NCBI GenBank assembly: GCA_018608565.1
Contig: JABAZT010000039.1
Coordinates: 1-52,906 of the forward strand
DNA length: 52,906 bases
Direction of reading: 5' to 3'
From: Candidatus Altimarinota bacterium
Lineage (GTDB): Bacteria > Patescibacteriota > Gracilibacteria > UBA4473
Shown here: one piece after another, positions 30,760 to 52,906 of the stretch
Layout of the letters: each line of letters opens with the position of its first letter
Numbering within the stretch: position 1 is the stretch's first letter
Made by a program: the position numbers and the translations under genes
The notes under the pieces: model-generated
The model's database searches: none
The model's input: the letters and a program-made list of their open reading frames with translations, nothing else
What the model was told of the DNA's origin: nothing

Positions 30760-32829
30760 ATGAATTTTGACACTTGGACTACGGCGGCATCAGAATCTAT
30801 CGTCAATACTCAAAAACTCGCGGATGAATTTCAGTCAGGGAATCTGGAAGTAGAGCATTGGGTTGTTGCAACACTGAGAGATCCAAATTCATTCCTCCAC
30901 AAGATCATCCAGAAACTAGGAGTCGATGAATCGACTATGATGACTGAACTTACACAGAAAATTCAAAAATTACCGAAGGTCGAAGGCGGGCAACGAAGCC
31001 CTTCCCGAGATTTTAGTGATATGATTCGTCAGGCAGAAAAAGTACAGAAACAGATGGGAGATAGTTATTTAGCAATAGATCACTTGTTTCTTGCTTTGTT
31101 CGATGGAAAATCTACGGCTAAAACTTTTTTTGAATCTTTGGGATTTAATAAAAAATCTGTTAAAGAGGCCATTGAATCTCTTCGTGGAGGAGAACACATA
31201 GATTCTGCTGATGGACATGAAAAGCTAGAGGCGCTAGAAAAATATTGTATCGATTTCACAACTCTCGCAGAGAAAGGAAAGATAGATCCTATCATTGGTC
31301 GGGATGACGAAATTCGCCGAACGATTCAAATTCTATCTCGACGAACCAAAAATAATCCCTGTTTGGTTGGAGATCCTGGAGTTGGAAAAACAGCTATTAT
31401 AGAAGGACTCGCTGTCAAAATTTATCAAAAACAAGTTCCAGAAAGCATTAGAAATAAAAGAGTCCTTGCTCTTGATCTTGCAGCATTGGTCGCGGGTGCT
31501 AAATACAGAGGAGAGTTTGAAGATCGACTAAAAAATGTTCTTAAGGCCCTCGAAAAAGCAGAAGGAAAGATTATCCTTTTCATTGATGAGCTTCATACTA
31601 TCGTTGGGGCAGGAGCTGCAGAAGGATCAATGGATGCTGGAAATCTCCTGAAACCAGCCTTAGCTCGAGGCACACTGCATTGCGTAGGAGCCACTACTCT
31701 CAATGAATACCGAAAATATATAGAAAAAGATGCAGCTCTTGAGCGTAGATTTCAGCCAATCTCTGTTGAAGAACCAACGTTTGAAGAAGCACTTGCTATT
31801 CTGCGTGGAATACGAGAAAAATACGAACTCCATCATGGGGTACAAATATCAGATGATGCACTCATAACAGCCGTGACTCTATCAACTCGGTATCTTCCGG
31901 ATAGAAGACTTCCCGATAAAGCGATTGATCTGATCGATGAGGCGATGAGCAAACTCAAACTGGAAATAGAATCGGAGCCAGAATCAATATCTTTGATCAA
32001 ACGGCAACTCGTTACTCTTGAGATTGAACGTGTAGCTCTCAAAAAAGAAAATACAAAACTAGAACAACTCAAAACCGTTGAAAAAAAAATTGCCGATCTC
32101 AAAGAAGAACTCAAAAACTTAGAATCTGAATGGCAACTAGAGAAATCAAGTGTAACGGATGTAAACGCTCTCAAGGAACAACTAGAACAACTCCGTTTTG
32201 AAGCAGAAAGAGCAGAGCAAGAAGCTGACTTTGCTAGAGCCGCAGAACTCAAACACGGAACCATCCCGGAGTTAGAATCTCAGATAAAAACACTCGCAGA
32301 CAAAAATGGAAACAAAAAACTGCTTCGTGAAAAGATTGAGGAAAATGACATAGCCGAAATCATTGCTCGATGGACAGGAATTCCTGTCACAAATTTAACA
32401 GAAAAGGAATCTGAAAAGCTCCAACACCTCGAAGAAAGACTACAACAAAATCTTATTGGACAGGAACAGGCAGTCAGTGCTATTTCAAATGCTATTCGCA
32501 GAAACAAGGCAGGACTTGGTGATACAGACAAACCTATTGGGTCATTTCTATTTCTTGGACCAACTGGAGTTGGAAAAACCGAGCTGACCAAGGTATTAAC
32601 AAAACTTTTATTTGATTCAGAGGAGGCGATGATACGGTTTGATATGTCTGAGTTTATGGAGTCTCATAGTGTGGCTAAGTTGATAGGTTCTCCTCCTGGG
32701 TATGTGGGACATGAGGAGGGTGGTCAGTTGACAGAGAAAGTTCGTCGCAGACCGTATTCGGTATTACTCTTTGATGAGATAGAAAAAGCTCATCGAGACG
32801 TGTTTAATATCTTTCTTCAGATACTTTAA
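30760..32829 (+). CDS. clpB: ClpB-type AAA+ disaggregase, N-terminal 689 residues (gene disrupted)
   Basis: The reading frame has the Clp N domain (1-145), the first AAA+ module (Walker [10 protein letters not shown] about 204-212, Walker [10 protein letters not shown]), the coiled-coil middle domain (about 395-525), and the second AAA+ module up to Walker B (GPTGVGKTE about 599-607, [10 protein letters not shown] about 669). It stops right after FNIFLQIL. Intact ClpB would continue DDGRLTDxxGRxVDF; that segment is missing and the frame is shifted. The rest of the protein is encoded in another frame at 32830-33262. As it stands, the second ATPase site cannot form. Confidence 0.88.
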
Positions 32830-33262
32830 AAACACGATCATTATCTTTACCAGTAATTTACTGGCGGATTTGTTTTCTCAAGAAAAACTTCCTTCGGAAA
32901 AAGAAATGCAAACAGGGCTTGTAGAATTTTTTCGTCCAGAGTTCTTGAACCGTCTGGATGGCATCATCGGATTTCATAGACTAGATAAATCTCACGTCAC
33001 GGCGATCCTAGAACTCCAACTACAATCTATCATCAATAAACTGAAGGCAAACCAGAATCTTGTATTAAAATTAGATCAATCAGCAAAAGATCATCTCGTG
33101 GAATCTGGTTTTGATCCTGTATTTGGAGCTAGACCACTCAAACGAGCTATTGAACGTGAGTTGCTTAATCCATTAGCATTAATGCTTCTCGAGTCCAATC
33201 AACAAGAAATCTCAATTATAAAGGTTCACCTGTCCAAGGGAGCCTTAGAATTCACTGCTTAG
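32830..33262 (+). pseudogene. clpB: C-terminal part of clpB, out of frame
   Basis: Beginning with [17 protein letters not shown] at about 32827, this frame encodes the sensor region and the C-terminal D2-small domain: VEFFRPEFLNRLDGIIGFHR, then GFDPVFGARPLKRAIERELL and PLALMLL. Sequence quality (conserved FRPEFLNRLD, GARPLKR) suggests the break is recent. No good start codon exists; only a TTG at 32870 could begin a separate peptide. Joined to the upstream frame with about 44 missing bases restored, the total is about 848 residues, the usual ClpB length. Confidence 0.85.
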
Positions 33263-43882: not shown

Positions 43883-44886
43883 AAACGCAACTTTTGAGAG
43901 AAGTAATTAGGAGTTAGAGAAAAATATTTGATGAGGGGTATACCAGTTGAGGCATTTTCGAGGAGTGTGATTAATGGCATCAACAACAAGAGAAAGCTCT
44001 TTAGGTGAAATATTTTCAAGGCGTGTTTTCTTAGGGAAATGCCTCCTGAGAAGTCTGTTGGAGTATTCTACAGCGCCTTTTTCCCAAGAAGAATAGGGAT
44101 GACAAAAGAAAGTGTCCACACCAAATCGTTCATGCCCCTTAAACTCAATACCGTTATCAAGAGTAAGAGAGTGTTTTGTCTTGTCATTGAGAAGCATTCT
44201 AACTTTCGTAATAATTCTTTGTTTGGTTATATCCATGGTTTTAGAAACACAGATGTATCGAGAGGCCCTGTCATGTAAAACTAATAAAGCAGTTTTATCG
44301 TCTTTGACTGATACGATGGTATCACCTTCCCAATCCCCAATTCGTTTACGCTCCTCGATCACTTCTGGACGTTCTGTGATGCACGTTCTATTAGGGATCA
44401 TTGTTCTCTTGGTTTTTTTCTTCTGCTTCTTTTTCTTGTATCGTTTGTGACAGAGGTATTTACAGAGACTTTGTCTTTGTTCGTAGAGATAAGTATAGAT
44501 AGTCGGTGAAGAGATTCTGTAGCCGGCATTAGGAGCCTCATATTTATTCCAACACTCTGCAATTGTTTCTGGAGACCAGGGATGTCTTTGTTTTAGTTTG
44601 GACTCAATATAGCTTACGAGCTCTGAATGATTTCTGATTTTCTGTGGTTCTTTCTCTACCCAATACCGCCTTTGGTATGCCTTCATATGAGCTTTTTCTG
44701 CATCATACACTCCATTCACTGCGTTTCTCTTTATCTCTTCGGTTACAACTGACTTGTTTCTTCCGATTAGTTCTCCAATATTGGATTTTTTATAGCCTCG
44801 ATTAAGGTAGTATTCGATTTCTTTCCGATCTGTTTTTTTGAGTTGTGCCATAGCTTTTGAAGTCTACTCATTCAAAAGTTGCGTTT
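43883..44886. mobile_element. IS30-family insertion sequence (1004 bp)
   Basis: Perfect 15-bp terminal inverted repeats AAACGCAACTTTTGA (43883-43897) and TCAAAAGTTGCGTTT (44872-44886) flank a complete minus-strand transposase gene. No clear target duplication is visible. It lies between ldh and the gene at 44899, whose 5' end it abuts. Confidence 0.92.
43907..44851 (-). CDS. IS30 family transposase
   Basis: A 314-residue DDE transposase. The N-terminal helix-turn-helix reads EYYLNRGYKKSNIGELIGR and then NKSVVTEEIKRN. The catalytic domain contains IGDWEGDTIV (first Asp), HSLTLDNGIEFKGHE (second Asp) and HPYSSWEKGAVEYSNRLLRR (Glu), the IS30 DDE pattern ending in HFPKKT. The frame is intact and the element has both ends, so it may be active. 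Confidence 0.95.
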   Translation of the reverse strand: MAQLKKTDRKEIEYYLNRGYKKSNIGELIGRNKSVVTEEIKRNAVNGVYDAEKAHMKAYQRRYWVEKEPQKIRNHSELVSYIESKLKQRHPWSPETIAECWNKYEAPNAGYRISSPTIYTYLYEQRQSLCKYLCHKRYKKKKQKKKTKRTMIPNRTCITERPEVIEERKRIGDWEGDTIVSVKDDKTALLVLHDRASRYICVSKTMDITKQRIITKVRMLLNDKTKHSLTLDNGIEFKGHERFGVDTFFCHPYSSWEKGAVEYSNRLLRRHFPKKTRLENISPKELSLVVDAINHTPRKCLNWYTPHQIFFSNS

Positions 44887-45481: not shown

Positions 45482-45529
45482 CAACATTTTCCATAGCACT
45501 TTTCCACAAAATTCCTATACTGAAGAGTG

Positions 45530-46348
45530 ATGAGTGCAAAAATCAAAAGTCGGTTTGCTTCAATAAGTCCAGAACTCAGGGAATCCCTTGTAGCTAGTGC
45601 TTGTGCAACTACAGAGAAGGCTCGTTTAAGTTTGGAACCTATCGAGAAAATGGCTCAATCATGGCAATTAACTCTTGATGCTGTTTCAGCTCCCCTCAAA
45701 AATGTGAAAAAGATGTGCAAAACTTTTGATGCCATGCACCGAGTGAATATTCGTGCCATAAGTCCTATAGTAACAAGGGTGGACGAGATTAACAAATGGC
45801 AAGAAGACATGCTGAAACCGCTTCAGTCACTCAGAGATCTGACAACGTTCGATACAAGCAGTTTCCCGAACCTTGCTACAGGCTTAGAATCCCGAGAAGT
45901 CGAATATGTTCTCCCACTAGAAAGGAGAGAGAAACCTGCCCAGGTAGTAAACAATATTACCGTTCACATACATGTAGAAGGAAATACATTTTTGGGAAGG
46001 GATTTCACTATGCCAAAGGTTTCACGATGGGAAGAAGTTTCGATACAGTTTTTAGATAGTCACACGGTAAAAGTCACCGCTGATGGAAACACCTACAAAG
46101 CGACATTTGTTGACCTAAATTTTATGAGCCAGACGACTCAGAGTCCCTTAAATACTTGGGAACTACTAGAACTTTTCGCCACTAATAAAGGAGAAATTCC
46201 TCATTACATCAAAAAAAGACAAGCAAACTTTAAGCAAGATTTATCTGCTTTGAGAAAAAACCTTAAATCATTATTTGGAATTGCTGAAGATCCGTTTGAG
46301 AATGTTCGAGATGGTAGTTGCCGAATCAAGATTGATATCGCTGGGTAA
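45530..46348 (+). CDS. Hypothetical accessory protein
   Basis: A 272-residue protein. The N-terminal 130 residues are helical (SLEPIEKMAQSWQLTLDAVS). A short beta stretch follows (VVNNITVHIHVEGNTFLG), then a C-terminal domain with VSIQFLDSHTVKVTADGNTY, NTWELLELFATNKGEIPHYI and FKQDLSALRKNLKSLFGI, which looks like a winged-helix-type module. No name can be given with confidence. A good sigma-70 promoter lies just upstream. It is the first gene of the phage-like region. Confidence 0.6.
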   Translation: MSAKIKSRFASISPELRESLVASACATTEKARLSLEPIEKMAQSWQLTLDAVSAPLKNVKKMCKTFDAMHRVNIRAISPIVTRVDEINKWQEDMLKPLQSLRDLTTFDTSSFPNLATGLESREVEYVLPLERREKPAQVVNNITVHIHVEGNTFLGRDFTMPKVSRWEEVSIQFLDSHTVKVTADGNTYKATFVDLNFMSQTTQSPLNTWELLELFATNKGEIPHYIKKRQANFKQDLSALRKNLKSLFGIAEDPFENVRDGSCRIKIDIAG

Positions 46349-46474
46349 AAAACCTCTGAATACAAAAAACTAAAAACTATTGGAAGAAAGCACTTTCCAA
46401 GCTTTTAAAGGTAAAAAATCCCCCCATTAGGTAAAAACACAGGGAACAATAGACGTAGTTCCTAATTTTTTACT

Positions 46475-47749
46475 ATGTCTAAACTTACTATCGTTCACGT
46501 TCCTATCTCATCTCTCAATCCCGCGCCCTACAATCCCCGAAAGTGGGAAACTGGAGCAACCAAACAACTCACAGAAAGTATTGAACGCTTTGGCTTAGTT
46601 GATCCGATTCTCGTTAACGGATCAAAAGAGAGAAAAAACATCGTTATTGGTGGGCACTTTCGGCTTAAGGTTGCAAAAGACCTTGGGTACAAGGATGTTC
46701 CTGTGGTCTATATAAATATTTCAGAGATAGAGAAAGAGAAGGAATTAAACCTTCGTTTAAACAGAAACACAGGAGATTGGGACTTTGAAATCCTCAAAGA
46801 TTTCGACATAGATCTACTGCTCGATGTTGGGTTTGATGATTCGAATCTCTCTGCTATTTGGGATGAGGCACTGGGCGTAGAAGACGATGAATTTAAAACC
46901 CGAGCAGAACTAGAAAATATAGAGGAACCTGAAGTGAAAGAAGGCGATATATTTCAGCTGGGGAATCACCGACTGATTTGTGGAGACTCGACTGATCCCG
47001 AAGTCGTTCAAAAACTTCTAGGAAAAACCAAGATCAATATGATCTACTCGGACCCGCCCTACAATATTGGGTTTGATTATGCCAAAGGTATTGGTACTAA
47101 CGGTAAATACCAAGGTAAAAAGACCGATGATAGCAAAAGCCGAACTGAGTATCGAGCCTTTCTAGAAAGTACGCTTCAAAATGGACTGAAGCATTGTACA
47201 CCAGATGCCCACGTCTTTTATTGGTGTGACCAAAACTACATTGGACTACTTCAAGACCTATATCAACGAAACAACATCGACAACAAGAGAGTCTGTTTGT
47301 GGATAAAAAATAACCAGAACGTCACGCCCCAAATTGCCTTCAATAAGTGCTACGAGCCATGTGTCTATGGAATTCGTGGGAAGCCGTATTTATCACCCAA
47401 ATCTTCGAATCTGACAGAAATTACAAATCCAGAAATTGAGAACGGAAACCGAACAATTGATGACATTCTCGACTTACTCGACATTTGGCTCGTCAAACGA
47501 TTACCCACCAACGAGTACCAACACGCAACCGAAAAGCCAGTTGTTTTGCATGATCGTCCACTCAGGCGATGTACGAAGCCTGGAGATACTGTCCTTGATC
47601 TTTTTGGAGGATCCGGGTCAACCCTTATTGCTTGTGAACAACTTGGAAGAAAAGCGTTCTTGGTAGAGCACGAACCTGCTTTTTGTGACCTGATTATTAA
47701 ACGCTACGTAGCCCTTAACCCACAAAATAATGTCAAAAAAATCAATTAA
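46475..47749 (+). CDS. ParB-domain DNA methyltransferase fusion
   Basis: A 424-residue protein. The N-terminal ParB/Srx-like nuclease-fold domain (about 1-125) has SLNPAPYNPRKWETGATKQL and KNIVIGGHFRLKVAKDLGY. A linker with GDIFQLGNHRLICGD leads to a beta-class N4/N6 DNA methyltransferase: motif IV DPPYN (about 193-197) and C-terminal motif I LDLFGGSGSTLIACEQ. Such fusions are typical of phages and protect or mark element DNA. It overlaps the next gene by 20 bases. Confidence 0.9.
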   Translation: MSKLTIVHVPISSLNPAPYNPRKWETGATKQLTESIERFGLVDPILVNGSKERKNIVIGGHFRLKVAKDLGYKDVPVVYINISEIEKEKELNLRLNRNTGDWDFEILKDFDIDLLLDVGFDDSNLSAIWDEALGVEDDEFKTRAELENIEEPEVKEGDIFQLGNHRLICGDSTDPEVVQKLLGKTKINMIYSDPPYNIGFDYAKGIGTNGKYQGKKTDDSKSRTEYRAFLESTLQNGLKHCTPDAHVFYWCDQNYIGLLQDLYQRNNIDNKRVCLWIKNNQNVTPQIAFNKCYEPCVYGIRGKPYLSPKSSNLTEITNPEIENGNRTIDDILDLLDIWLVKRLPTNEYQHATEKPVVLHDRPLRRCTKPGDTVLDLFGGSGSTLIACEQLGRKAFLVEHEPAFCDLIIKRYVALNPQNNVKKIN

Positions 47750-48500
47750 TCTCGGAGATATATTTCAGCTAGGGGAACACCGACTTATCTGTGGAGATGC
47801 AATGAACGAAAAACACGTTCAATCCCTTATTGGAGAAGAAAAAGTAAAACTTATTCTGACCGATGTCCCATATGGTGTGGCTTTGGTTGAAGGGAAGAAA
47901 GGATTTTCTCAGTCGAAGCAAGAACATGTGCCTATTAAGAACGACCATATTCAGTCAGATGAAGAGTTTAGAAGTTTTACGAATCGTTGGCTCGATCCGA
48001 TAAAAAATCGCTTAGAACGAAAGAATACTTATTACATTTTCAATTCGGACAAGATGATGTTTCCCATGCGAGAAGCATTACTCGATCAAGGGTTTAAATT
48101 TTCTCAACTACTTGTTTGGGCAAAGACTGGCGCGGTTATTGGAAGGCTTGATTACCTTCCCCAACACGAACTGATTGCTTATGGATGGAAAGGGAAACAC
48201 GAATTTCTGAAATCCAAAGACAAGTCGATTCTCATTAGCCCTAAAACCAAGAAAAACACGCTTCATCCCACGATGAAACCAGTCTCCATTTTAAGGAAAC
48301 TGATTCTCAATAGTACTTGTCGAGAAGACCTCGTGTACGACCCATTTGGAGGCAGTGGTTCAACTTTAATAGCTTGCGAGCAGACCCGTAGAAAATGTTT
48401 GATGATTGAAATTGAACCTAAGTACTGCCAAGTCATCATTGATCGCTGGGAAAAACTGACAGGACAGAAATCAATATTACTTAAAGCTGATAAATCATGA
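47730..48500 (+). CDS. Second DNA methyltransferase (beta class)
   Basis: A 256-residue methyltransferase without a ParB domain. It begins with the same linker phrase as its neighbour (GDIFQLGEHRLICGD) and ends with VYDPFGGSGSTLIACEQT (motif I). Motif IV is DVPYG rather than DPPY. The proximity and shared phrases indicate a tandem duplication. Whether the DVPY variant is active is unclear. Confidence 0.87.
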   Translation: MSKKSINLGDIFQLGEHRLICGDAMNEKHVQSLIGEEKVKLILTDVPYGVALVEGKKGFSQSKQEHVPIKNDHIQSDEEFRSFTNRWLDPIKNRLERKNTYYIFNSDKMMFPMREALLDQGFKFSQLLVWAKTGAVIGRLDYLPQHELIAYGWKGKHEFLKSKDKSILISPKTKKNTLHPTMKPVSILRKLILNSTCREDLVYDPFGGSGSTLIACEQTRRKCLMIEIEPKYCQVIIDRWEKLTGQKSILLKADKS

Positions 48501-48904
48501 GCTTAAACGAAAAACAACAGAAACAAAAAGAAGCCCTTTGTGATCAGTTGAGAAAGACTCCAATTGTGCAGGTAACGTGTGAGAAAACAGGGGTTAGCCG
48601 AGCCACTTATTATCGTTGGAGAAAAGATGACAAGAACTTTTCCAGAGAAGCTGATAAAGCTCTAAGCGAAGGTGTACATCTGATGAATGACATGGCGGAG
48701 TCTCAACTCTTATCAGCGATTAAATCACAAAACTTAACGGCCATTATTTTTTGGCTCAAACATCGACACAAGTCATACACTCAAAAATTTGAAGTCACCG
48801 CTCGGATGGAAAACCCTGAACTAACAGAAGAACAACAATTGATGGTGCAAAAAGCACTCACTTTAGGCTCATTAGTACCAACCAAGAAATCATCAAAAAA
48901 ATAA
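48497..48904 (+). CDS. Terminase small-subunit-like helix-turn-helix protein
   Basis: A 135-residue protein. The N-terminal HTH reads PIVQVTCEKTGVSRATYYRW, followed by RKDDKNFSREADKAL and AIIFWLKHRHKSYTQKFEV, a layout typical of phage small terminase proteins. It overlaps the upstream gene by 4 bases (ATGA) and lies 2 bp before the large subunit, so its packaging role is well supported by context. Confidence 0.82.
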   Translation: MSLNEKQQKQKEALCDQLRKTPIVQVTCEKTGVSRATYYRWRKDDKNFSREADKALSEGVHLMNDMAESQLLSAIKSQNLTAIIFWLKHRHKSYTQKFEVTARMENPELTEEQQLMVQKALTLGSLVPTKKSSKK

Positions 48905-48906
48905 CC

Positions 48907-50403
48907 ATGACGGAAGTTGTACCTGCCATCGAAGAAGACATGATTCAGAAAGTACTGACGGATCAACAAGTCAGACAAGAAGTGACACATCAAAGTCATT
49001 ATTGGTTTTTCCATACATACTTTCACCACTATATCACCCACAAGACGGCCGACTTTCAGCGAGATATTTTCCAGCTGACAGAAGACGAGAAAATTAAGAA
49101 TGTCGTGATTATTGCTTTTCGTGGGTCGGGAAAATCAACCATTGTAAATCTTTCGTATCCTTTATGGGCGATATTGGGGAAGCAACAGAAGAAATTTGTA
49201 CTGCTGGTTGGGCAAACCCAACACCAAGCCCGACAACATCTCAAAAACATCAAGCGAGAAATGGAGTCCAATGACTTGCTACGAAAAGACTTAGGACCGT
49301 TCAAAGAAGATGATGAATGGAGTACTTCATCACTGCTTATCCCAAAACATGATGCTCGAATTATGGCAGTTTCTATGGAACAAAGTGTGAGAGGGATCCG
49401 GCATAATCAATATCGACCAGATCTGATAATCTGTGATGATATTGAAGACCTGTCCTCTGTAAAAACACTGGAAGGAAGAAACAAAACTTATGATTGGCTT
49501 ACGAGCGAAGTAATTCCTGCAGGTGATCAAAGCACTCGATTGGTAATGATCGGAAATTTACTCCATGAGGATTCAGTCATCATGCGCATGAAAGAAAAAA
49601 TCAGAAAACGAGAAATGAGTGGTAAATACAAAGCTTATCCAGTAGTTCGTAACAAGAAGACTCTTTGGCCTGGAAAATATAAAAATATGCAGGCCATAAA
49701 AACTGAAGAAAAAAGAGTTGGGAATCCGATTGCTTGGCAAAGAGAGTTCATGCTTCGAATAGTTCCAGACGATGGTCAAGTAGTCCATAAAGATTGGATT
49801 CAGTACTATAATCAACTTCCACAATCTAATGATGCTGATCCCGATGAAGGAGGAATTTCGTTCCGACAATGTGCCATTGGAGTAGATTTGGCGATTTCTG
49901 AAAAACAAACGGCCGATTACACGTCTTTTGTACCGGCGAAGATCTATCTCATTGGGCATAAAGCTTTTATCTATATTTTGCCAGAGATCGTAAACCGAAG
50001 GATGGATTTTAGTACTTCTCAAGAAACACTTAAGGCTTTGGCTCAAATAATCTATGACAGCCCCAAGAGCGTAAAAATGTATATCGAAGGAGTTGGGTAC
50101 CAGCAAGCGTTTATACAAGAAGTGAAAAATCAGGGATACGAAACAGTTGATGTGCAACCCAGAGGCGACAAACGATCAAGATTGTCGGCTTCGAGTCATT
50201 ATATCAAAACAGGAAAAGTGTTGTTTCCCAAAAAAGGTTGTGAACGGCTTATTGAGCAGATGACAGGTTTTGGAGTAGAAAAGCATGATGATATGGTCGA
50301 CGCATTTACGACGCTCGTGAACGAAGTTATGAAAGACCCACCCCGTAGACATTGTTTTGCATTTTTTGGGGGAGATGGAGATGATGAAATTTACTGGTTT
50401 TAA
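48907..50403 (+). CDS. Phage terminase large subunit
   Basis: A 498-residue packaging motor. The ATPase has Walker A FRGSGKST (about 71-78) and Walker B LIICDDIEDLS. The RNase H-like nuclease has GVDLAISEKQTADYTS with the first acidic residue, an Asp/Glu-containing strand (VKMYIEGVGYQQAF), and KHDDMVDAFT at the end. It cuts and pumps DNA into proheads. No portal gene follows, unlike in a normal prophage. Confidence 0.93.
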   Translation: MTEVVPAIEEDMIQKVLTDQQVRQEVTHQSHYWFFHTYFHHYITHKTADFQRDIFQLTEDEKIKNVVIIAFRGSGKSTIVNLSYPLWAILGKQQKKFVLLVGQTQHQARQHLKNIKREMESNDLLRKDLGPFKEDDEWSTSSLLIPKHDARIMAVSMEQSVRGIRHNQYRPDLIICDDIEDLSSVKTLEGRNKTYDWLTSEVIPAGDQSTRLVMIGNLLHEDSVIMRMKEKIRKREMSGKYKAYPVVRNKKTLWPGKYKNMQAIKTEEKRVGNPIAWQREFMLRIVPDDGQVVHKDWIQYYNQLPQSNDADPDEGGISFRQCAIGVDLAISEKQTADYTSFVPAKIYLIGHKAFIYILPEIVNRRMDFSTSQETLKALAQIIYDSPKSVKMYIEGVGYQQAFIQEVKNQGYETVDVQPRGDKRSRLSASSHYIKTGKVLFPKKGCERLIEQMTGFGVEKHDDMVDAFTTLVNEVMKDPPRRHCFAFFGGDGDDEIYWF

Positions 50404-50448
50404 GCCCAAAAGTCCTAGACTATAAGTTTTATCACAGCATCAATGTAG

Positions 50449-51735
50449 GTGATGGAAGAAAATACAACCAACACCGAAACTCTCAAATACTGCCTTTACG
50501 CTCGGAAGTCGAGTGAAGCAGACGAAAGACAAGCTCTTTCTATTGATTCGCAGATCAGTGAGATGCTCAAACTGGCTAAAAATGAAGACATGGAAATTGT
50601 TGAGACCCTGAAAGAAAGTAAATCAGCGAAAAGCTCGGGGCAAAGAACGGTCTACAATCAGCTTCTAACAGGAATTAGAGAACAACGGTTCAATGCGATA
50701 CTTACATGGGCCCCAGATCGATTAAGCAGAAATGCTGGTGATTTGGGGTCTATTGTGGATCTTATGGACCAGAAAATGCTCGTTCAAATAAGGACTCATG
50801 GACAAACCTTCACAGATAACCCAAACGAGAAGTTTTTGCTGATGATCCTATGTTCTCAAGCCAAATTGGAGAATGATAATCGAGCCAAAAACGTGAAACG
50901 AGGACTTCGAAGAAAATGTAAAATGGGAACTAGACCCGGATGTGTACCGCTTGGGTACGAATTGATTCGAGGGAAAACCTTTCGAGATCCAAGCACCATT
51001 GAAGTTGATCCTATAAGAGGACCCTTGATACAAAAAATGTTCCTCTGGGTCTCAGAGGACGGTTTAAGTGGACGACAGGTATGGGAATACATGAAGGAAG
51101 AAGGATTCAAAACAAAAAATGGGAAGATTGTAACACTAAGCATGATTTTTAGGATTCTGGCAGATCCGTTTTATTACGGATCTTTTGAATACCCCAAGGG
51201 CAGTGGAGAATGGTATGAAGGTTCACATGAGACATTGATCGATAAAGAAACCTACGACATTGTCAGAAGCAAGATGAAAGTCTCTCCAAAAGGTAAATGG
51301 GGACGCAAAGACTTTTTCTTCAACAAGATCTTTAAGTGCGGATCATGTTGCTCTGGTATATCAGGACAAGAAAAAGTGAATCGACATGGAAAGCGATATA
51401 TTTACTACGGTTGTAATCGATTTGGAGGGAAAAACACCTGTAAAGAGAAGTATGTGAGAGAAGAAACGATCATTGAGTCCTTGGCGAATATTTGTGTGAC
51501 CGCTCAAGAGGAAAATAGTCGATTGGAGTTAAAACTTCGGACAGAAGTGGAGAGATTTAACGATATGCAAAAGATGATGAGTGGAGAAAATGCCAAACCA
51601 ATAACGACAAAGGACTATGTGCAGTATGTGCTTAAAAATGGAAATGGAAGTGAGAAGAGTAAGATAATAAAAGAGCTTTCTGAGAAATTAGTACTTCAAG
51701 GCGGAGAAATTGCTATAGAAGAGGTTATGACATAG
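50449..51735 (+). CDS. Large serine recombinase
   Basis: A 428-residue site-specific recombinase. The resolvase domain (about 14-155) contains the catalytic-Ser region LYARKSSEADERQALSIDSQ (Ser about 21/22) and LTWAPDRLSRNAGDLGSIVD with the conserved DRLSR. The recombinase domain and a zinc-ribbon follow: FKCGSCCSGISG and YYGCNRFGGKNTC. A coiled-coil stretch ends the protein. Such enzymes integrate phages and mobile elements without host factors. It follows the terminase by 45 bp. Confidence 0.93.
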   Translation: MMEENTTNTETLKYCLYARKSSEADERQALSIDSQISEMLKLAKNEDMEIVETLKESKSAKSSGQRTVYNQLLTGIREQRFNAILTWAPDRLSRNAGDLGSIVDLMDQKMLVQIRTHGQTFTDNPNEKFLLMILCSQAKLENDNRAKNVKRGLRRKCKMGTRPGCVPLGYELIRGKTFRDPSTIEVDPIRGPLIQKMFLWVSEDGLSGRQVWEYMKEEGFKTKNGKIVTLSMIFRILADPFYYGSFEYPKGSGEWYEGSHETLIDKETYDIVRSKMKVSPKGKWGRKDFFFNKIFKCGSCCSGISGQEKVNRHGKRYIYYGCNRFGGKNTCKEKYVREETIIESLANICVTAQEENSRLELKLRTEVERFNDMQKMMSGENAKPITTKDYVQYVLKNGNGSEKSKIIKELSEKLVLQGGEIAIEEVMT

Positions 51736-51751
51736 TAAAAAATGGTTTTTC

Positions 51752-51760
51752 TGCTATAAA
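51752..51760 (+). promoter_or_regulatory. Extended -10 promoter of the nucleotidyltransferase gene
   Basis: TGCTATAAA is an extended -10 ending 21 bp before the ATG at 51782, in the short gap after the recombinase gene. It implies separate expression of the cargo genes. Confidence 0.5.
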
Positions 51761-51781
51761 TAGAGAAAGATCCCGTATTAA

Positions 51782-52816
51782 ATGTCTAGTAAAAAAATCT
51801 CACCTGAATTTTCTAAATTCCTCTTAGATTTAAAAGAGATTTTAAATCGTGTAGAGTTAGAAGCTGATAAAGCAGATTTACCAAATTCAGAAAAAGAACT
51901 ATTTAGAAAAAAATTATTAGATGAGTACTTAAATCAATTTTTAGAAATAAATTTTCTGAAGGGAGAAGTATGGTTTTTTAGAGGTAAGGAAGAGTTGTTG
52001 CGAAAATTGAAATCCGAAATAGCTGTTTTTTTTCAAACATCCCCAGATAATGTTCACATTGTAGGATCTGCTAGGAAAGGTTTTAGTTTAAAGAGAGGTG
52101 GGAAAGCTTTCAATGATTCGAAAACCAATGAAAAAGGAGTAACTCGCTCAGATATAGATGTTGCTATTATAGATGATGAAAGGTTTTCCTATTATCGTAA
52201 AAAAGTAAGGGAAATTAAATCTGATTTTGAGGATAAATCTAGGCCATTTTTTAGTGATGAAGTAGAAACTCTTAATGATTCCGTTAGCTACATAATTAAA
52301 GGATGGATTCGTCCAGACATACTATTTGGAAAAGAGAAAAATGAATGGAATGATTTTTTCGATTCTATTTCTCATGCAAAAGATATCCCCTTTAAAATTA
52401 GGGGTGGACTCTACAGTGACAGTGAAGACTTGCTCTCATACTTAAGCAAAGGTGTGAATAAAAGTCTCGATTATTTTAAAAAATTAATCAAAGACCTTGA
52501 TGATTCGGATATTTTGAATGACACCAATGCGAGAGAACAGGAACTACTACTTACAGCTTTCTTATATCTTTTGTGTCCTTTTAGCCAAAAAAACAAAGAA
52601 ATAATAACTAAATTAACTGAACTCATTGATGTAACTGAAGATGAATTTAGTAAATTGAAAGATGATTTTATATCCAAGGGGCTATTAAAATTTATTGGAG
52701 ATGAAATTTATTTTGAAAAAGACGAAACAGGAAAAGAGGCAGTGAACTATCTTTTGAAAGAGGAGGCTATAAATCCTTCTAAAATTTTAGAATTATCTAA
52801 CATTCTCGAACAATGA
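51782..52816 (+). CDS. Pol-beta-like nucleotidyltransferase, possible defence cargo
   Basis: A 344-residue protein. An N-terminal helical region (1-75) precedes a nucleotidyltransferase core: VHIVGSARKGFSLK (Gly95-Ser96), RSDIDVAIID (Asp124, Asp126) and WIRPDILFG (Asp179), the Gly-Ser and three carboxylates of the Pol-beta/CD-NTase fold. The C-terminal part ends in a winged-helix-like segment (LIDVTEDEFSKLKDDF). It could make cyclic or linear nucleotides, or modify tRNA or proteins. It overlaps the next gene by 4 bases and sits beside a recombinase, as defence cargo often does. Confidence 0.75.
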   Translation: MSSKKISPEFSKFLLDLKEILNRVELEADKADLPNSEKELFRKKLLDEYLNQFLEINFLKGEVWFFRGKEELLRKLKSEIAVFFQTSPDNVHIVGSARKGFSLKRGGKAFNDSKTNEKGVTRSDIDVAIIDDERFSYYRKKVREIKSDFEDKSRPFFSDEVETLNDSVSYIIKGWIRPDILFGKEKNEWNDFFDSISHAKDIPFKIRGGLYSDSEDLLSYLSKGVNKSLDYFKKLIKDLDDSDILNDTNAREQELLLTAFLYLLCPFSQKNKEIITKLTELIDVTEDEFSKLKDDFISKGLLKFIGDEIYFEKDETGKEAVNYLLKEEAINPSKILELSNILEQ

Positions 52817-52906
52817 ATACCAAGAAAAAATTACTCAAAAAAATGGCTGAGACCTATTTCTTGGAAGGAAATAGTAAAATACGAACTTTCTTTGAAAAAG
52901 AGCTCG
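52813..52906 (+). CDS. 5' end of a gene partnered with the nucleotidyltransferase (partial)
   Basis: Starts at an ATG overlapping the preceding stop (ATGA) and runs off the window after 31 codons: MNTKKKLLKKMAETYFLEGN then SKIRTFFEKEL. The tight overlap means co-expression with the nucleotidyltransferase. Too short to assign. Confidence 0.6.
   Translation, partial: MNTKKKLLKKMAETYFLEGNSKIRTFFEKEL

Follow-up and report, generated by a model that had tools for sequence, protein, structure and literature searches.

The window analyzed here, a stretch of 52,906 nucleotides, ends in two overlapping genes, the first of which encodes a nucleotidyltransferase (NTase) with intact motifs. Judging from sequence comparisons, the locus is probably an antiviral system without an earlier description, and there is a real chance that it represents a new system family. 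We give an even chance to the more specific reading that it is a two-gene sensor-effector defense operon on a phage-derived mobile element, with the NTase as the effector. The broader proposal, which we hold at somewhat less than even, is that a widespread NTase family without a name is an exchangeable defense effector, usually placed under a DUF262 sensor and here under a large helical sensor, one that in other genomes controls modules of the PIN, RelA/SpoT, or caspase-linked NTPase type.

The NTase gene and its phage-derived surroundings

The NTase gene (51782 to 52816, plus strand) encodes 344 amino acids, with a core at approximately residues 60 to 228 and a predicted C-terminal winged-helix segment at approximately residues 245 to 326. 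A first-pass annotation of this DNA had described an NTase with a Gly-Ser motif and three aspartates, and this description holds. On the plus strand, the sequence contains G95-S96 (52064 to 52069), an SDID motif (52148 to 52159) with the predicted metal ligands D124 and D126, and an RPD motif (52310 to 52318) with the third carboxylate, D179. None of these five residues varies across 72 aligned sequences, therefore the motifs are not due to chance; the RPD motif is missing in a distant branch (loci L109 to L111). With G-S, DxD, and the third carboxylate all present, the window protein belongs, by its motifs, to the Pol-beta-type nucleotidyltransferase superfamily. Among the 72 sequences, 18 matched Pfam NTP_transf_2 at E ≤ 1, the commonest match among the relatives. 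Searches of the window NTase against Pfam, NCBIfam, and PADLOC models and against PDB sequences gave no match, and its match to PHROG 32008 (function unknown) was weak. The tRNA (CCA-adding) and antibiotic NTase families, membership in which would have told against the annotation's reading, gave no Pfam or NCBIfam model match.

In the AF2 model of the window NTase, the core is confident (pLDDT ~95), and the C-terminal part (pLDDT ~57 to 77) consists of three helices, two short strands, and a further helix. Foldseek searches with this part returned mostly winged helices, none of them significant. Aligned with its relatives, the window NTase carries an insert ahead of SDID as well as approximately 110 extra C-terminal residues, and the predicted winged-helix segment (52514 to 52759, plus strand) is absent from the DUF262-paired relatives examined. 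Taking AF2, Foldseek, and the alignment together, we accept with moderate confidence the C-terminal winged helix that had been noticed earlier. The AF2 model of a canonical relative (L073:5944-6549) has a mean pLDDT of 95.1 and a pTM of 0.89. Neither this model nor that of the window NTase had a significant Foldseek match in the PDB; the weak top matches of the relative, none significant, include many NTases, such as poly(A) polymerase, GLD-2, TUT1, CdnG, and cGAS. We regard the relative as a structurally divergent NTase. Searches with the C-terminal segment and the partner peptide against plasmids and phages returned nothing significant.

The string TGCTATAAA, located upstream of the NTase ORF at 51752 to 51760, had been read as an extended -10 element that supports independent expression. 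Our promoter scan listed no site there, and its site total was not above that of shuffled sequences, so the promoter claim has no backing beyond the motif.

The neighboring genes are of phage type. Directly upstream of the NTase gene is a large serine recombinase or integrase gene (50449 to 51735, plus strand; Pfam Resolvase and Recombinase, PHROG 95 integrase), as the first-pass annotation had stated. It is preceded on the same strand by terminase small and large subunit genes (48497 to 50403, assigned by PHROGs) and by two phage-type DNA methyltransferase genes (46475 to 48500, PHROG 498), the first with a ParB-like N-terminus (ParB PHROGs). A transposase gene on the minus strand (PHROG 4646, 43907 to 44851) adjoins this phage-derived block, which spans 45527 to 52906.

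Profile searches found the window NTase in one of 380 genomes sampled from its own phylum and no relative in the other 379. Because of this distribution, the gene was probably gained horizontally, and the phage-derived context combined with near absence from the phylum indicates mobility. Weak matches in other genomes of the phylum were single fragments (E from 1e-3 to 0.05), which we treated as chance. The source bacterium has a small genome. Elsewhere in the window, a ClpB/ClpC-like gene (30760 to 33262) is split into two ORFs (30760 to 32829 and 32870 to 33262), which suggests a frameshift or assembly error. In the same assembly, a type III-like DNA methyltransferase gene and an SNF2-type helicase gene lie at the ends of contigs C8 and C15 (L162, L127), possibly a restriction-like system split by assembly, and the 2,850 bases of contig C22 (L134) read as N.

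A partner gene continued across a scaffold gap

The start of the partner gene overlaps the end of the NTase gene by ATGA (52813 to 52816), an overlap reported earlier that proved real. The window holds the first 31 codons of the partner (52813 to 52906, plus strand), which had been described as truncated. It looks truncated because the window stops at a scaffold gap: contig C39 is 53,280 bases long, with 10 N at C39:52907-52916 followed by 364 more bases. The gene is short in the window, as described, and the contig continues past the cut. After the gap, exactly one frame is open (0 stops, compared to 13 and 13 in the other frames), and the gene continues at C39:52917-53280 and, by homology, at C29:2-1851. 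Contig C29 opens with an ORF that is open at its 5' end, followed by a second scaffold gap and then another ORF. A combined partner query matched one 802-aa gene on Pseudanabaena plasmid pPg_05 over 95% of its length, with the partner segments aligning in order at residues 43 to 156, 178 to 433, and 440 to 800. The segments are likewise collinear with a 799-aa alphaproteobacterial protein that stands alone (residues 3 to 28, weakly; 40 to 164; 171 to 426; 440 to 792), and the three larger segments also align with two fusion proteins, one from Sphingobium and one from Rhizobium. Given this collinearity, we took the end of C39 and the start of C29 as one partner gene of approximately 790 aa, a join that we infer from homology rather than from reads. 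We also looked for a contig that shares exact sequence with the window end and found none.

The genes that follow the partner on C29 lie on the opposite strand and look housekeeping, therefore the operon has two genes. The partner itself is not housekeeping; a housekeeping partner is what the first-pass annotation would have taken as evidence against a defense system. As read from its sequence, it is apparently helical. Its segments had no Pfam match of note and no recognized toxic domain, and none matched the HEPN model. The sequence beyond the window gave no HEPN gene, one of the kinds that the annotation had named as a sign of defense; what it did yield is a protein family that elsewhere is joined to enzymes.

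Homologues of the partner are rare: we found them in 3 of 347 genomes from one Pseudomonadota class (around Sphingomonas), 1 of 367 cyanobacterial genomes, and 1 of 50 other genomes, and a viral scan with the partner profile found no relatives. The window partner is homologous over its length to the L196 and L201 proteins of this family, and the gene directly upstream of it, with the ATGA overlap, is the NTase gene. Upstream of the Pseudanabaena homologue, by two bases, is a 346-aa gene annotated as PIN. The Sphingobium homologue (pYGP1) is fused to RelA/SpoT, as annotated, and at two further loci of the family RelA/SpoT is fused as well, judged by N-terminus resemblance. The Rhizobium homologue is fused to a poly-gamma-glutamate-hydrolase domain, as annotated; another (L200) is fused to a P-loop NTPase with a caspase-like gene adjoining, assigned by motif and by eye; and a 268-aa gene of no recognized identity abuts the L201 homologue upstream. 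The C-termini of this last gene and the PIN gene resemble each other (2/500 shuffles), and neither shows significant sequence similarity to the predicted winged helix of the window NTase. Judged by position, the window NTase occupies the place of PIN, RelA/SpoT, hydrolase, and NTPase effectors. We found only one copy of the NTase combined with the helical partner, which counts against the sensor-effector reading, as do the dissimilarity of the winged helix to those other C-termini and the dependence of the C39-C29 join on homology.

These varied enzymatic domains also bear on whether the system works by nucleotide signaling. The first-pass annotation had suggested that it may be CBASS-like or another kind of nucleotide-signaling system, in which case the NTase would make a signal and the partner (DUF262 in the relatives) would bind and obey it. 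RelA/SpoT is a nucleotide-making domain fused to the same partner family, CdnG and cGAS are among the non-significant Foldseek matches, and weak PADLOC cyclase matches were returned for 1 of the 72 NTase sequences. However, PIN, which is no signal maker, takes the same position; the whole NTase is only approximately 200 aa in the relatives; the window protein matches no PADLOC cyclase (CD-NTase) model; and no CBASS effector adjoins it. We therefore set the CBASS-like label aside and regard signaling as unlikely.

The NTase-DUF262 family

A tblastn match in a Cronobacter plasmid (7e-9) opened the way to the wider NTase family, and the window NTase matched the family profile at E = 1.8e-44, with the window sequence itself included in that profile. 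GTDB genomes supplied 80 loci of the family set, IMG/VR three and then seven more, and an E. coli P2 prophage one. In this sample, which is biased by search patterns taken mostly from DUF262-paired members, a gene of approximately 334 aa directly follows the NTase gene in all 82 loci where both genes are readable, with gaps of -98 to +14 bases. The downstream gene is GmrSD_N/DUF262 in all 80 members scanned, with PxFQR and DGQQR invariant, and the NTase in these pairs is approximately 200 aa. Pairwise distances of the NTase and DUF262 proteins are correlated (r = 0.91; shuffle maximum 0.14), so the two travel as a unit. At an 83rd locus (Thalassolituus, L083:6560-7552), the DUF262 gene has one in-frame TAG and the NTase is intact; on an IMG/VR contig, the NTase gene (L018:5941-6554) is frameshifted and the paired DUF262 gene is intact. 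We also considered DUF262 as the window partner and rejected it: the N-terminus of the partner scored at the level of shuffles (-1.0 bits), and the rest has no GmrSD_N match. The source genome contains no DUF262 over the cut-off.

By record titles, the family occurs in at least nine phyla: Cyanobacteria, Pseudomonadota, Bacillota, Bacteroidota, Actinomycetota, Planctomycetota, Chloroflexota, Poribacteria, and Cloacimonadota. Three of the pairs (E. coli 1500, L109, and L110) sit in known hotspots of P2-type prophages, adjoining the portal gene, and the L111 pair neighbors a cytosine methylase gene and a gene of HNH type (IMG/VR gene names assigned by eye); one pair is on a plasmid, Cronobacter pA84-3. 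At chromosomal loci the flanking genes are mixed, some of defense type and many housekeeping, and the latter count against a defense role. An element-bound function for the window NTase, such as superinfection control or regulation with no wider host defense role, would suit its direct proximity to integrase and terminase genes; we consider it improbable in view of the many genomic contexts of its relatives and of their partner, a defense-type DUF262 protein.

The commonest PADLOC matches of the DUF262 partners were NsnA (a Menshen component), PD-T4-2_A, and REase_II. No nuclease model matched the scanned partners, nor did DUF1524, OLD, or HEPN, so that the candidate enzyme of the pair is the NTase. 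The earlier proposal of a candidate defense system thus draws indirect support from the DUF262 pairing, from the prophage, plasmid, and methylase contexts, and from the PIN, RelA/SpoT, and P-loop NTPase modules to which the partner family is joined. On an Aliarcobacter plasmid (L015:7932-10591), a distant NTase directly precedes a DUF4365 protein, with TIR and phospholipase-D-like genes close by, and the two may form a further defense pair built on an NTase; it matched only weakly and was left out of the family.

A toxin-antitoxin pair would likewise be strictly paired, with genes that overlap and a location on mobile DNA. The small NTase of HEPN-MNT pairs serves as antitoxin, not as toxin, which counts against an effector role here, and Pfam NTP_transf_2, the commonest match among the relatives, is the home of the MNT proteins. 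By analogy, the NTase would silence the partner (or DUF262) by nucleotidylation. Against this, the partner has no recognized toxic domain, and the PIN and RelA/SpoT enzymes joined to its family are themselves of toxin type; we think an antitoxin role is not likely.

Proposed mechanism and comparison with known systems

Under the reading of the NTase as effector, the partner would act as an infection sensor or regulator that keeps the divergent Pol-beta-type enzyme inactive until a phage trigger is sensed, and the C-terminal winged helix may couple the two proteins. Once released, the NTase would transfer nucleotides to cellular RNA, most likely the tRNA 3' end, and this modification would stop translation. 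tRNA is a target of PIN and RelA/SpoT-type toxins and of several NTase toxins. What the sequences show is the gene pair itself, the intact NTase motifs, a partner collinear with its homologues, the variety of enzymatic domains joined to the partner family, and the strict NTase-DUF262 pairing; we infer that the system serves defense, that the partner is the sensor and the NTase the effector, and what the trigger and the substrate would be. In published DUF262 systems, DUF262 regulates or senses and the enzymatic partner or effector differs between systems (PMC10952713), and an effector role for the NTase in the wider family as well would agree with this. Systems linked to NTPases are already known to swap effectors (PMC7159879). 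The window would then be a variant whose sensor-like partner is of another kind and is joined to other enzymes in other genomes. If the effector is exchangeable, two unrelated sensor types would share one RNA-modifying effector, and confirmation would place a nucleotidyltransferase among the effectors swapped between sensors. The existence of a natural E. coli NTase-DUF262 pair makes a test in E. coli straightforward. The NTase of such pairs has no name in PADLOC, Pfam, or NCBIfam, and neither an NTase-DUF262 pair nor the partner family is described in the papers searched, a coverage with subscription journals mostly outside it.

Several known systems share parts of this arrangement. CBASS CD-NTases have Pol-beta superfamily motifs in common with the window NTase, whose core is smaller and which differs in model matches and neighboring effectors as described above. 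HEPN-MNT systems (e.g., PMC4621449) likewise combine a small NTase with one partner; unlike them, the window NTase is larger and its partner, of approximately 790 aa, is not recognized as HEPN. GmrSD, BrxU, and SspE, as well as Menshen, Dazbog, and PD-T4-2 (PMC10952713), share DUF262 with DGQQR with the partner of the window NTase's relatives; in those relatives the NTase replaces DUF1524, OLD, or HEPN, and the window pair has no DUF262. The PIN and helical-protein pair of Pseudanabaena (pPg_05) and the RelA/SpoT fusion of Sphingobium (pYGP1) have a partner homologous over its length, and in Pseudanabaena the enzyme gene lies directly upstream, as the NTase gene does in the window; where the window has an NTase, these have PIN or RelA/SpoT as the enzymatic domain. 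The NTase-DUF262 pair (e.g., in the E. coli 1500 P2 prophage and Cronobacter pA84-3) differs from the window pair in lacking the C-terminal extension and the insert before SDID and in its DUF262 partner, and it shares a homologous NTase core and its motifs, the NTase as first gene of a tight pair, and a mobile context.
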